In this document: piece by piece, positions 18,934 to 43,523 of the stretch
How positions within the stretch are numbered: position 1 is the stretch's first letter
How the letters are laid out: each line of letters opens with the position of its first letter
NCBI GenBank assembly: GCA_021324365.1
Contig: JAJPJE010000029.1
Coordinates: 1-64,000 of the forward strand
Reading direction: 5' to 3'
Length of the DNA stretch: 64,000 nt
Source: Terriglobia bacterium
Lineage (GTDB): Bacteria > Acidobacteriota > Terriglobia > Terriglobales > Acidobacteriaceae
Program-made: the position numbers and the translations under genes
The notes under the pieces: model-generated
Told to the model about the DNA's origin: nothing
Database searches by the model: none
What the model saw: only the letters and a program-made list of their open reading frames with translations

Positions 18934-19815
18934 TCAGAAAATCACTTCACCGCGCGCGACTTCCACAACATTTCCACCGACACGCACGTTCGTGACTCGG
19001 TGATTTTGATTTTCTGCGGAAACGAAAAGGCGGCTCGGCCGTTTCATCTCGATTCCTTGCTCGATCAGAATGCGTTCACCGGACTTGGCTGTGCCATGAG
19101 CAGCCATCCACGCTGCGCAGCAGCCGGCAGCCGATCCGGTTGCAGGATCTTCTCCGTTGTAGAAGATCATGCGAGCATGCAGGCGCGCATCAGGATCGAC
19201 AGTCTCGCGGCAAACCAAGTATAGAAACTTGCTGTCCTTGTCCTTTACGTAATCGCTGATGGCAGCCCAGTTCGCGCGGAGATTCTGCAGCGGGCTTAGC
19301 GAGCGGAAGGGAACGATGGTGAAAGCGATACCTGTCGAAACAGTCTGAATCGGCAAGTCCCGATCGAGATCGTCGGCTTTCAAACCAAGGGCACGCGCGA
19401 CTTCCTCGTGTGAGTGAGTCGCACCAAACTCAGGATCGCGTTGCTGCATTTCACCGAACAGTTCGCCGTGAGCATCGTTCGAGAACCGCACCGGCACTTT
19501 GCCGACGTTGAGGTCGAGCCACACTTCGGAAGCACCGCTGGTGAGTCGCAAAACCCACGCGGTGCCCAGCGTTGGATGTCCGGCGAATGGCAGTTCCTCG
19601 CTTACAGTAAAGATGCGAACGCGAATGCCGTTCTGCCGTTGTTCATCGAATGAGCGCGGGATGACAAACGTCGTTTCTGAAAGGTTCATTTCACGCGCGA
19701 GTGCCTGCATTTCCTCTGTCTCGAGTCCAGCAGCGTTGGTAAAAACCGCCAACTGGTTGCCTTGCAGCGGTTTCGAGGTGAAAACGTCGACTTTGACGAA
19801 GGGCAGAGTTGGCAT
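18934..19815 (-). CDS. PhzF family isomerase/epimerase-like protein
   Basis: Starting at the ATG of MPTLPFVKVDVFTSKPL, the usual PhzF N terminus, the protein is 293 residues; a TTG 11 codons upstream with AAAGG is an alternative. Family hallmarks are GNQLAVF, the catalytic Glu47 in NLSETTF, LPFAGHPTLGTAW and EDPATGSAAG near the C terminus. PhzF of phenazine synthesis isomerises 2,3-dihydro-3-hydroxyanthranilate, but most homologues outside phenazine clusters have unknown substrates. There are no other phenazine genes here, so a specific reaction cannot be assigned. It is divergent from the peroxiredoxin leader. Confidence 0.9.
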   Translation of the reverse strand: MPTLPFVKVDVFTSKPLQGNQLAVFTNAAGLETEEMQALAREMNLSETTFVIPRSFDEQRQNGIRVRIFTVSEELPFAGHPTLGTAWVLRLTSGASEVWLDLNVGKVPVRFSNDAHGELFGEMQQRDPEFGATHSHEEVARALGLKADDLDRDLPIQTVSTGIAFTIVPFRSLSPLQNLRANWAAISDYVKDKDSKFLYLVCRETVDPDARLHARMIFYNGEDPATGSAAGCCAAWMAAHGTAKSGERILIEQGIEMKRPSRLFVSAENQNHRVTNVRVGGNVVEVARGEVIF

Positions 19816-19864
19816 AGGCGCGAGGCTCCAATCAATGCTGTCGTTCAAGATGCCTTTGCGGTAC

Positions 19865-19870
19865 TATAAT
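19865..19870 (+). promoter_or_regulatory. Consensus -10 box TATAAT of the peroxiredoxin leader
   Basis: A perfect TATAAT lies 31 bases before the cysteine-rich leader ORF. The -35 region is poor (TTCAAG-like, 15 bases upstream). Transcription would start near 19877. Confidence 0.5.
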
Positions 19871-19900
19871 TGTCAAAAGATATGGGCTCATAGCTAAGTA

Positions 19901-19960
19901 ATGAACCGATTCGCACAGCTTTCCACCATGGCCATGTGTAGCTGCTGTTGTTACAGCTAG
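19901..19960 (+). CDS. Putative cysteine-rich leader peptide (19 residues)
   Basis: A short frame from ATG to TAG encodes 19 residues ending MCSCCCYS, with four cysteine codons within five. It lies about 24 bases after the predicted transcription start and about 140 bases before the 1-Cys peroxiredoxin gene. The stop codon overlaps the first arm of a pair of mutually exclusive hairpins. Poly-cysteine leader ORFs that sense charged tRNA-Cys are known upstream of cysteine genes in actinobacteria; the arrangement here is comparable. No good ribosome binding site is visible, which is the main argument against it. Confidence 0.4.
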   Translation: MNRFAQLSTMAMCSCCCYS

Positions 19961-19999
19961 CCGGGTAAGCGTGTGTGCCACCCGGCGTCAGTCGGGTGG
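19960..19999 (+). promoter_or_regulatory. Two mutually exclusive hairpins (attenuator-like)
   Basis: GCCGGGT (19960-19966) pairs perfectly with ACCCGGC (19980-19986), and CCACCCG (19978-19984) pairs perfectly with CGGGTGG (19993-19999). The two 7-bp stems share bases and cannot coexist, the logic of a transcription or translation attenuator. There is no T-tract after the second stem. The GTGCCACCCGG/CGGGTGGG pattern could also be a dispersed repeat, so function is inferred. Confidence 0.45.
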
Positions 20000-20102
20000 G
20001 CCAGAAATCTCTCACCTTCACTCACGCTGGATTCACAGACAAGTTTTGCGTTAGCGCGCCGCCAGTCGGCGCCGACACCACATTCAAGCTGAAGGAGAAG
20101 AC

Positions 20103-20965: not shown

Positions 20966-21631
20966 CTAGCGGCCATGATTCTTCAATGTGGTGGCCAATT
21001 CGGGTCGTACTACGATCTCATCCTCGCTGTAAGTAACGAAGCCCTGCTGCCGAAACCTGTTCATGAAGGTGTTTACTCGCGAACGGGTAGTGCCTACCAT
21101 TTCTGCGAGTTGAGACTGAGAGATTCCGAAGATCGGTTTGAGAGCGCCGTCACGGCTGTTGGAATGGTGGGCCAAGCGAAGCAGGATAGATGCAAGTCGC
21201 TGCTCGCTATTGTCAACCAGATGCAGAGTGAGAACTTCTTCGTACTCATGGGTGCGCTGCAGAATGTTGGCGAACAGAAGAGCCCCGAAATGCTGATCTT
21301 CGCGCAGGCGGGTCCGCGCTTCTTCAGCAGAGAGCCGCAGAACAATGGAATCGGTGAGCGCGAATGCCGTTCCGAAAAAGCGGCCGTGTGGCGTTAGACA
21401 GCGCTGGCCGAAGAAGTCTCCTTCAGAAAAGACGGAGAGCATAGCGTCTTTGCCGCTTGGGCTGGTGAAGGAATAACGTATCTGTCCCGAGACGACATAG
21501 TAGAGCGCATCAGCCCGAGCCCCCTGGCTGAAGACAGCCTCATTTCTGGCAACATTCAGCAGCTTGCGAGAGGAAAAGCTCTGCAGCACCTTTGGAACGG
21601 CTGCTTTGCTGGGCTGTGAAAATGGTGACAT
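20966..21631 (-). CDS. Crp/Fnr family transcriptional regulator
   Basis: With the ATG of MSPFSQPSKA the product is 221 residues; an in-frame TTG 26 codons upstream is possible and neither has a strong ribosome binding site. The N-terminal cNMP-binding beta-barrel (about 25-130, with FSQGARADALYYVVSG and FSEGDFFGQRCL) is joined to a winged HTH with the recognition helix in ISQSQLAEMVGTTRSRVNTFM. The four-cysteine cluster of Fnr is absent, so a ligand or redox-independent sensor of the Crp type is more likely. An ACATTT-N7-AAATGT dyad at 21765-21783, in its own upstream region, is a possible autoregulatory site. Confidence 0.9.
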   Translation of the reverse strand: MSPFSQPSKAAVPKVLQSFSSRKLLNVARNEAVFSQGARADALYYVVSGQIRYSFTSPSGKDAMLSVFSEGDFFGQRCLTPHGRFFGTAFALTDSIVLRLSAEEARTRLREDQHFGALLFANILQRTHEYEEVLTLHLVDNSEQRLASILLRLAHHSNSRDGALKPIFGISQSQLAEMVGTTRSRVNTFMNRFRQQGFVTYSEDEIVVRPELATTLKNHGR

Positions 21632-21844
21632 GTTACGACTTGCATCGTACAAAACAATTAGGCCTTTGAAAGTTCCTTTTTGAACAGGTAAATAATTGAG
21701 CAGCAGCAATTTAGGCCAGAAACTGCGGTTTGGCTCGGAACTCAGTATGAGAGCCGAATTTGTTACATTTCGTCACAAAATGTGCGAATCATCGCACCAT
21801 TTCTGATGCAGTTGTCGAGTTTAACGGGCCTGGCGGAACGTTCC

Positions 21845-41789: not shown

Positions 41790-43523
41790 ATGGCAGCCAT
41801 TGGAATGTCGCAGCGGTTGGGAGACCTTCTTGTAAAGGAGAAGGTTATCACCAAGGAGCAGCTCGACGAGGCGTTGAAGGTGCAACGCCAGACGGGCGGC
41901 CGCCTCGGGGCCATCCTCGTCAAATTGAATTTTCTTACTGACGAGGACGTAACAAATTTCCTGTCGCGCCAATATGGCGTACCCGCCATCAACCTGAACT
42001 ATTTCGAGATTGATGCTGCGGTGGTGAAGCTCATTCCGCAGGAAACCGCCAAGCGCTACCAGATTCTGCCACTCAGCCGTGTAGGCGCTTCGCTCACCAT
42101 CGCCATGGTCGATCCGACCAACGTGTTCGCGATGGACGATATCAAGTTCATGACTGGCTTCAATATCGAGCCAGTCGTCGCTTCCGAAACCGCGATCATG
42201 GAAGCGATTGAGAAGGCATATTCGCAGCCGGCTGCCCCGGAAGAAGATCTGGATTCGATCGTCGCTTCCATCAGCGATGGCGACGCCGATGTCGAGCTGC
42301 AGAACGAACAAGAAGAGATGGGCCTCTCCGACCTGGAGAAGGCTGCCGAAGAAGCTCCGATCGTGAAGCTCGTAAACCTCATCCTGACCGACGCGGTCAA
42401 GAGAGGCGCCAGCGACATTCACATTGAACCGTACGAAAAAGAGTTTCGTGTCCGCTTCCGAATTGATGGTGTTTTGCAGGGGATCATGAATCCTCCGATG
42501 AAGCTGAAGGATGCGATTACTTCCCGTATCAAAATCATGTCGAAGCTGGACATCAGCGAGAAGCGTCTGCCACAAGACGGACGCATCATGATGAAGATGA
42601 ATCTGGGCGGGAAGAAGAAGCAACTCGATTATCGCGTCAGCACGCTGCCGACGCTGTTCGGTGAAAAGATCGTGCTGCGACTTCTCGATAAAGAAAATCT
42701 CCGGCTCGACATGACGAAGTTGGGTTTCGAGCCCGAGTCGCTGGTCAAATTTGAGAAAGCCATTCTGAAGCCTTACGGCATGGTGCTAGTCACCGGACCG
42801 ACGGGATCCGGCAAGACCAACACTCTGTATTCGTCGATCTCTCAGTTGAATAAGCCGGACACGAACATCATGACCGCGGAGGATCCAGTCGAATTCCAAT
42901 TGGCTGGCGTCAACCAGGTGCAGATGAAGGAATCGATCGGCCTGAATTTTGCCGCGGCACTCCGGTCGTTTCTGCGACAGGACCCCAACATCATCCTCGT
43001 CGGTGAGATTCGTGACTTTGAAACCGCAGAAATCGCGATCAAGGCTGCGTTGACGGGACACCTGGTGTTGTCCACGCTGCATACGAACGGCGCGCCCGAA
43101 ACCATCAGTCGTTTGATGAACATGGGTATCGAACCATTTCTGGTCGCGACAGCCGTTCACCTGATCTGCGCTCAGCGACTCGTGCGTCGCGTCTGCGCCA
43201 ATTGCGCTCAGGAAGTCGATATGCCCTACCAGGCGCTGCTGGATGCCGGCTTCGAACCGGAAGAGGCAAAGACGGCAAAGCCGAAGAAGGGCAAAGGATG
43301 TACAACCTGTAACAACACCGGCTACAAAGGACGCGCCGGTTTGTACGAAGTGATGGAAATCGACGACGAGATTCGGGAACTCATTCTCGTCGGCGCCTCG
43401 GCATTGGAGTTGAAGAAGAAAGCGATCGAGCGCGGCATGCTGACACTCCGTCGCAGCGGCCTGATCAAAGTAATGGCCGGCATTACGACGCTGGAAGAAG
43501 TAGCAAGAGAGACAGTGCACTAA
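41790..43523 (+). CDS. pilB: Type IV pilus assembly ATPase PilB
   Basis: The likely start gives 577 residues (MAAIGMSQRLGDLLVKE); the frame is open 39 codons further up. N-terminal MshEN/GspE_N domain (about 5-150), then the GspE ATPase: Walker A GPTGSGKT with Lys342, Asp box TAEDPVEF, Walker B ILVGEIRD and His box TGHLVLSTLHTN. A zinc site is formed by CANC and CTTC near residues 470-510. PilB polymerises pilin by ATP hydrolysis at the inner membrane. First gene of pilB-pilT-pilC-pilS-pilR, spaced 61, 27, 29 and overlapping 8 bases. Confidence 0.96.
   Translation: MAAIGMSQRLGDLLVKEKVITKEQLDEALKVQRQTGGRLGAILVKLNFLTDEDVTNFLSRQYGVPAINLNYFEIDAAVVKLIPQETAKRYQILPLSRVGASLTIAMVDPTNVFAMDDIKFMTGFNIEPVVASETAIMEAIEKAYSQPAAPEEDLDSIVASISDGDADVELQNEQEEMGLSDLEKAAEEAPIVKLVNLILTDAVKRGASDIHIEPYEKEFRVRFRIDGVLQGIMNPPMKLKDAITSRIKIMSKLDISEKRLPQDGRIMMKMNLGGKKKQLDYRVSTLPTLFGEKIVLRLLDKENLRLDMTKLGFEPESLVKFEKAILKPYGMVLVTGPTGSGKTNTLYSSISQLNKPDTNIMTAEDPVEFQLAGVNQVQMKESIGLNFAAALRSFLRQDPNIILVGEIRDFETAEIAIKAALTGHLVLSTLHTNGAPETISRLMNMGIEPFLVATAVHLICAQRLVRRVCANCAQEVDMPYQALLDAGFEPEEAKTAKPKKGKGCTTCNNTGYKGRAGLYEVMEIDDEIRELILVGASALELKKKAIERGMLTLRRSGLIKVMAGITTLEEVARETVH

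Follow-up and report, generated by a model that had tools for sequence, protein, structure and literature searches.

The peroxiredoxin locus

The window analyzed here, i.e., the whole 64,000 nucleotide stretch of contig JAJPJE010000029.1 from a Terriglobia bacterium of the family Acidobacteriaceae, contains a gene for a Prx6-type peroxiredoxin (hereafter prx) preceded by a short cysteine-rich ORF (Table 1). The protein also scores above the cut-off of the NF009668 peroxiredoxin family and, as claimed in the preliminary description of this locus, contains one cysteine only, at residue 58. The gene is flanked upstream by a divergent PhzF-like gene (18934-19848, minus strand) and downstream by a gene for a Crp/Fnr-type regulator on the opposite strand (20966-21709, minus strand). 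The order of elements originally proposed, namely a TATAAT box, a 19-codon ORF ending in MCSCCCYS, competing stems and then prx, is confirmed by inspection of the sequence.

Table 1. Features of the prx gene and its leader in the window
Feature	Position	Strand	Basis or remark
-10 box TATAAT of the presumed leader promoter	19865..19870	+	read from sequence
Cys-run leader ORF MNRFAQLSTMAMCSCCCYS, 19 codons, ending MCSCCCYS	19901..19960	+	stop TAG 19958-19960
Alternative in-frame ATGs of the leader ORF	19928 and 19934	+	sequence
Putative stall site of the ribosome on the regulatory Cys codons, TGT-AGC-TGC-TGT-TGT (C S C C C)	19937..19951	+	sequence
Region 2, antiterminator 5' arm GCCGGGT	19960..19966	+	fold of 19956-19990
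Region 3, ACCCGGC, common to both stems	19980..19986	+	fold
Terminator-like hairpin, 9 bp (19978-19986 with 19991-19999), loop 19987-19990, without U-tract	19978..19999	+	fold, alignment
Candidate anti-Shine-Dalgarno TCTCTCACCTTC	20007..20018	+	predicted pairing
Shine-Dalgarno region of prx (GAAGGAGAA)	20091..20099	+	sequence
1-Cys (Prx6-type) peroxiredoxin gene, 229 aa	20103..20792	+	PF00578, PF10417 (1-cysPrx_C)

No good -35 box is seen by eye upstream of the TATAAT sequence, and the automatic promoter scan called no sigma-70 site for the leader. The ORF starts 30 nt past the -10 box rather than at the presumed 5' end of the transcript. Its Cys codons are located at 19937, 19943, 19946 and 19949, the last three being contiguous as in the attenuators of the mycobacterial type, and the TGYNNNTGYTGYTGYTAY pattern has a single match in the whole genome. 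Past the Cys codons, regions 2 and 3 can form an antiterminator-like stem of 7 bp (-15.8 kcal/mol; 9 of 200 shuffles equally good), and the duplex between the two regions outperforms 92% of shuffles (p 0.08). The terminator-like stem is more stable (-18.7 kcal/mol, z -4.89, with none of 200 shuffles equally good) and is homologous, in both position and sequence, to the terminators of related leaders, as judged from the alignment and from the match to a covariance model built without the window copy. Seven base pairs had been assigned to both stems; this holds for the first, and the second comprises nine. Because region 3 is common to the two stems, they are mutually exclusive. Region 2 begins on the last base of the stop codon of the upstream ORF (uORF), 9 nt past the last Cys codon, and lies inside the footprint of a ribosome sitting at that stop. 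Thus, a Cys-codon run in a short ORF, alternative stems and the placement of region 2 at the stop, all of which are attributes of attenuators, are found in the window copy.

An intrinsic terminator with a U-tract is not among them. The second hairpin is not followed by a T-run (GGGTGGGCCAGAAATC), and a scan for intrinsic terminators on the plus strand found nothing between 18500 and 21500; the promoter and terminator scan as a whole called no promoter and two terminators, both on the minus strand, which is a lower yield than with shuffled sequence, and is uninformative except for the missing T-run. Given the loss of the U-tract, transcription attenuation cannot be simply assumed for the window copy: its off-state may involve Rho-dependent termination or occlusion of the prx ribosome-binding site, or its control may be weakened. 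Occlusion would amount to translational attenuation of the kind reported for the polycysteine ORFs of mycobacteria, whereby alternative RNA states hide or free the Shine-Dalgarno sequence of prx via the candidate anti-Shine-Dalgarno. According to the prediction, the latter pairs with the Shine-Dalgarno if region 2 is masked, whereas with region 2 accessible its partner is the 3' arm released from the hairpin; the predicted Shine-Dalgarno pairing is 0.81 and 0.53, respectively, which, together with the missing U-tract, points to such a switch. However, this comparison was made post hoc, the difference alone was reproduced in 18 of 300 shuffles and both effects in 5 of 300, and the terminators of the relatives do carry U-tracts, so that we treat translational control of the window copy as a possible but doubtful arrangement and as a lead only.

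Conservation of the leader upstream of prx

Of 61 genomes searched, 59 contain an ortholog of prx, and the leader was read in the 30 loci from relatives that were listed. A Cys-run leader ORF precedes prx in 20 of these 30 loci, of which 17 were detected by an automatic test (an ORF no longer than 45 codons that includes CCC, located in the 350 nt upstream) and three (L014, L029, L030) by reading; three of the 30 loci (L015, L016, L019) are mutually close. The automatic test was positive for 17 of the 30 real prx upstream regions compared to 23 of 3000 first-order Markov resamples. No recognizable leader was found in the remaining 10 loci (L004, L007, which retains a degenerate trace, L008, L012, L021, L022, L023, L024, L026 and L032). 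One of these, L004, encodes the closest prx ortholog by protein identity (83%) among the 30 loci listed.

Two additional controls address the specificity of this association. Among 147 ORFs of at least 150 aa from the window, L115 and L033-L054, 15 are preceded by a CCC ORF, and these include 12 peroxiredoxins, cysD of the same genome and 2 other genes. A looser Cys-run test applied to 80 named relatives yielded 15 positives, 14 among the 24 entries from Acidobacteriota and 1 among the 56 others, the latter being an archaeal sequence that reads like a piece of a ferredoxin. Several acidobacterial entries fail the looser test despite the presence of a leader, either one recognized by eye (L040) or one located further upstream (L035, L036, L041). 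In L036 and L041, two prx genes appear by eye to stand in tandem, with the Cys leader before the first one, so that approximately 1 kb separates it from the matched gene.

A DNA search of the genome of the window gave one match for the leader, which is thus single-copy there, and we accordingly rejected the explanation, raised in the preliminary description, that the hairpin pair is a repeat unrelated to prx; the comparison of orthologs proposed there recovered the Cys-rich ORF. Runs of Cys codons as such are common in this genome, with 388 and 415 occurrences of TGYTGYTGY on the two strands vs 239 and 232 for the reversed pattern, which could favor a chance ORF followed by accidental hairpins. 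This explanation is contradicted by the conservation upstream of prx, by the resampling and gene controls, and by the left-out covariance model described below, and we consider it extremely improbable; judging from the match of that model and from the recurrence of the ORF in two thirds of the listed loci, the window leader is not a product of chance. Short CCC ORFs with no terminator visible by eye also occur in the upstream regions at 41790 and 58493 of the window, and these we take to be chance occurrences.

Anatomy of the leaders in relatives

In the relatives, a G-rich stretch such as GTGTGGGTAG is found at the end of the ORF or closely after it and is followed, 15-50 nt further downstream, by an intrinsic terminator of the form ACCCACCCGGC-loop-GCGGGTGGGTTTT. 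Pairing of this stretch with the terminator 5' arm is possible and would give a competing antiterminator. The terminator stem is nearly invariant (double changes in 2 of 10 pairs) and hence too conserved for covariation to provide support, so we tested the antiterminator pairing instead, by permuting the bases between the Cys run and the terminator. Of the 61 prx leaders, 57 show a pairing stronger than the shuffle mean (26 of these at p <=0.05), as do all 14 leaders of sulfur genes, with combined P values of 3e-26 and 4.5e-14, respectively, that should be read as upper marks of significance given that related sequences are not independent. For several leaders of the second family (L013, L014, L015, L018 and L020), the antiterminator is not convincing, with p values between 0.16 and 0.78. 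The distance from region 2 to the uORF stop does not exceed 15 nt in 60 of the 61 prx leaders and in 14 of 14 sulfur leaders, and at least four T residues follow the hairpin in 60 of the 61 analyzed prx leaders, the exception being the window copy; three more prx leaders without a terminator (L152, L162, L195) were left out of the 61.

Across 111 distinct leader ORFs, the Cys codons include 380 TGT and 210 TGC, the longest Cys run varies between 2 and 8, and the remaining residues are variable; mixed codon usage and variable run length are expected if cysteine, and not a nucleotide motif, is the conserved entity. This pattern also bears on the alternative under which the Cys-rich peptide itself is a metal or redox sensor, comparable to copper-responsive uORFs, as opposed to the ORF being a gauge of tRNA-Cys charging. 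Cys-rich peptides are able to bind metals, and a copper-responsive uORF protein, CruR, is described in the available text of PMC9426467. However, the Cys run alone recurs among the leaders, the final codons in many of them are accounted for by RNA pairing, and the target genes are those of sulfur assimilation rather than metal genes, all of which makes a sensor peptide improbable.

A TAnnnT box is located 4-10 nt before a start codon of the ORF in 84 of 113 Cys-run loci, while other spacings yield 31-33 loci; if a TTG-type -35 box is required as well, the respective numbers are 63 and 10-21. Given this proximity of the box to the start, the leaders of most relatives look leaderless or nearly so, and the window copy differs in this respect. 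Two sequence types of Prx are encoded behind the leaders matched by the R1 model described below, HPAD (13 proteins, the type found in the window) and HPKD (40 proteins), the two being approximately 44-46% identical.

By comparison with its relatives, the window copy looks like a divergent example with an altered last part. It could be a decaying attenuator, the ORF and stems of which are remnants, with prx free of cysteine control in this species. The U-tract, the near-leaderless start and the -35 box have been lost in the window copy, and the leader has disappeared altogether in one third of the listed prx loci, in line with decay; conversely, the Cys run, the start and stop codons, regions 2 and 3 and the very stable hairpin are all intact, and the terminator-like stem is perfect over its 9 bp. 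On balance, decay appears rather unlikely to us. We therefore assign the leader family, and not the window copy, to the class of transcription attenuators, considering that the U-tract and the near-leaderless start are missing from the window copy, for which a translational switch or decay is possible.

The same leader type upstream of sulfur genes

As the TGYTGYTGY pattern is too common to list leaders, covariance models were used for genome-wide searches. Model R1 was built from 9 prx leaders of other genomes, with the window copy left out; it finds the window leader (19931-20010) with 24.6 bits and an E-value of 2.8e-4 in 231 kb, and also recovers it, at E 0.005, when the whole genome is searched. 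Within the family, 93 of 200 genomes contain an R1 match at E <=0.01, including the 9 model genomes that match by construction. From these searches, 90 loci were selected (30 listed and 60 picked from the longer match list), and 84 were kept after 6 loci that failed a simple terminator pattern (L127, L132, L135, L138, L144, L145) had been dropped. The genes downstream of the 84 loci encode Prx in 54 cases, sulfur metabolism proteins in 14 and an ATP-grasp protein in one, with 15 unclassified loci that are probably false matches, many of them without a Cys-run ORF.

Model R2 was derived from 9 leaders, 8 of which precede sulfur genes and one the ssuA gene in the genome of the window. Within the class, 112 of 299 genomes contain an R2 match at E <=0.01, and within the phylum, 15 of 297 do so at E <=0.001; several prx leaders are matched by R2 as well. 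The leader of cysDNH in the same genome, which is outside the training set, is found at 38.8 bits. Sulfur genes, as identified by comparison with the anchors, follow 36 of 48 R2 loci, which comprise the best 30 and 18 hand-picked ones and so are not a random sample with respect to gene counts. The remaining R2 loci include 2 sulfite exporter TauE proteins, a rhodanese and 2 family 2A encapsulins. Rfam yielded 0 matches at the gathering score in the window and only a tRNA in 7 related loci.

Within the genome of the window, cysDNH is preceded by MSYRCGTRLCCCRMAAHKTVFRTGATMR and then by a terminator with a U-tract, and the gene for the sulfonate-binding protein SsuA (TIGR01728) has a leader ORF containing CCCC, with a terminator behind it. 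In relatives, the products of the genes behind such leaders include sulfite/nitrite reductases, a sulfate-binding protein, cysteine synthase A (cysK), CysD, the siroheme synthase N-terminal domain, a sulfide:quinone reductase-like protein, rhodanese and an aliphatic sulfonate-binding protein. Outside the class, ORFs with 3-7 consecutive Cys codons are located upstream of genes for what by eye are PAPS-reductase-like proteins (L288-L290, L293). The regulated genes as a group serve the metabolism of the amino acid presumably sensed; prx itself is not a cysteine biosynthesis gene. Given that the leader type is common to cysDNH, ssuA and many sulfur genes, cysteine supply, one of the two signals put forward in the preliminary description, is strongly supported.

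The same genome encodes an AhpC-like paralog of Prx (L267, G000:C101:9500-11400), the gene of which directly follows a Fur-family gene (PF01475); by eye, no Cys leader is found before the genes for the AhpC-like or the BCP-like paralog. The presence of the Fur-family neighbor and the absence of the Cys leader suggest that the AhpC-like paralog and prx answer to different signals. Ordinary peroxide control, considered as an explanation for prx, was rejected on the basis of these observations.

A tentative model of cysteine attenuation

Because the leader is shared with sulfur genes, the window region is most likely the leader of a ribosome-mediated cysteine attenuator that belongs to a sulfur/cysteine regulon of Acidobacteriota. 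The sequences show a conserved Cys-run ORF, competing stems, their position over the stop codon and the use of the arrangement by sulfur genes; from these we infer that the ORF is translated, that ribosomes stall within it, that termination takes place and that there is a response to cysteine. Under the proposed model, a ribosome would translate the short ORF right behind the RNA polymerase. When charged Cys-tRNA is plentiful, the ribosome would reach the stop codon and cover region 2, allowing region 3 to pair with region 4 in what is the terminator hairpin of the relatives, so that the peroxiredoxin level would be low. When charged tRNA-Cys is scarce, the ribosome would halt at the Cys codons, leaving region 2 free to pair with region 3; the downstream hairpin would then be blocked, and prx would be switched on together with the genes for sulfate reduction and sulfur uptake. 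Thus, a cysteine-starved ribosome probably turns on the sulfur assimilation genes and prx in concert. Attenuation by stalling on Cys codons, the mechanism originally suggested for this locus, accordingly holds up for the leader type, with the reservation that the U-tract required for intrinsic termination is missing in the window copy. The inclusion of a peroxidase in the regulon may reflect the demand for a Cys-dependent enzyme when the thiol pool is low or oxidized.

Classical attenuators of the trp, his, ilv and leu type combine regulatory codons, a stop codon overlain by region 2 and a choice between 2:3 and 3:4 stems, and the leaders described here share all three features. The differences are that cysteine would be the amino acid sensed, that in most prx leaders the ORF appears to begin very near the 5' end, and that the target is a peroxidase and not a biosynthetic enzyme. 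In mycobacteria, stalling of the ribosome in polycysteine ORFs reportedly frees a downstream ribosome-binding site. These polycysteine leaderless short ORFs are cysteine-responsive attenuators according to the available text of the sources (Canestrari et al. 2020, via PMC13236596, PMC9031893, PMC9094748), and resemble the acidobacterial leaders in the short 5' ORF with contiguous Cys codons, in the distribution of one leader per cysteine or sulfur operon over several operons and, for most acidobacterial relatives as judged from sequence, in the start of the ORF at or near the transcript start. They differ in that they belong to another phylum, that peroxiredoxin is a frequent target in Acidobacteriota, and that an intrinsic terminator, with an antiterminator competing against it, ends the leaders of the acidobacterial relatives, whereas the accessible part of PMC1262725 reports mycobacterial upstream regions without conserved terminators. 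The same 2005 report describes, in that part, candidate Cys leader peptides of the cys and cbs operons of Actinobacteria, with Cys-codon runs near the stop of a short ORF before sulfur genes as is the case here, but with no terminator or antiterminator found.

The uORFC-8-2 motif of Rhodobacterales, as presented in the available text of PMC8632094, has tandem Cys codons in its uORF and an intrinsic terminator after it, with the same proposed logic; it differs from the present leaders in its target (cysS, in place of the peroxiredoxin gene of the window), its alphaproteobacterial host and the inclusion of the Cys codons in the first stem. The PBC-28-3 motif, which is located before ahpC-like genes and is likewise a cis-RNA upstream of a peroxiredoxin gene, is described there as one long covarying stem beside the start codon that is thought to bind a protein; the description, so far as that text goes, mentions no uORF, unlike the leaders considered here. 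The circuit had been presumed undescribed in the preliminary description. Polycysteine attenuators as such are published for mycobacteria; a literature search retrieved nothing on cysteine attenuation in Acidobacteriota or on a cysteine leader of a peroxiredoxin, within a coverage that leaves out most subscription papers and hence does not prove absence.

For Acidobacteriota, a phylum dominant in soils, there are to our knowledge hardly any descriptions of how sulfur and cysteine are controlled. A single leader anatomy links sulfate reduction, sulfonate and sulfate uptake, sulfurtransferases, encapsulin and peroxiredoxin to one putative signal, charged tRNA-Cys. If this is correct, the regulon can be read from sequence, the coupling of peroxide defense to cysteine supply through the ribosome becomes testable, and Acidobacteriota are a second phylum with polycysteine attenuators, by convergence with mycobacteria or by shared descent. 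Taking these considerations further, we tentatively entertain a combined scenario that is possible, if speculative: peroxide or sulfur shortage would lower the free cysteine pool and the charging of tRNA-Cys, and ribosomes would halt on the polycysteine leader, such that the ribosome, without any dedicated protein sensor, would serve as a thiol-stress sensor inducing the Prx6-type peroxiredoxin in step with sulfate reduction, with the AhpC paralog retaining a conventional regulator of the Fur/PerR type. This scenario would extend to at least two Prx6 clades in Acidobacteriota, and the window variant would have traded termination for control at the ribosome-binding site.

Additional candidate leaders matched by the R2 model

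The two family 2A encapsulin shell genes (NF041162, approximately 505 bits, cut-off 380; L270:1118-2035 and L285:1121-2038, both on the minus strand) each follow, at a distance of about 0.5 kb, a leader that contains Cys codons and has a terminator; a rhodanese-like ORF seems to lie in between in L270. Sulfur-storage compartments may thus be part of the same cysteine regulon.

Some R2 matches involve leaders with no Cys run. In the genome of the window, one such match (L266, G000:C65:76879-76996; excluded from the sulfur count) corresponds to a short ORF, MHMCTIRPTGAGFQQS, with a U-tract terminator resembling those of the sulfur leaders, before the gene for homoserine dehydrogenase, and is probably another amino acid attenuator, perhaps one for threonine or methionine. 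Two further matches without a Cys run (L283, L284) are located, by eye, just before aspartokinase-like ORFs and are possibly attenuators of other amino acids with the same hairpin style. Finally, in another family of the phylum (L298, G716), an R2 match with a terminator precedes what by eye is an anthranilate-synthase-like ORF, a possible Trp attenuator.
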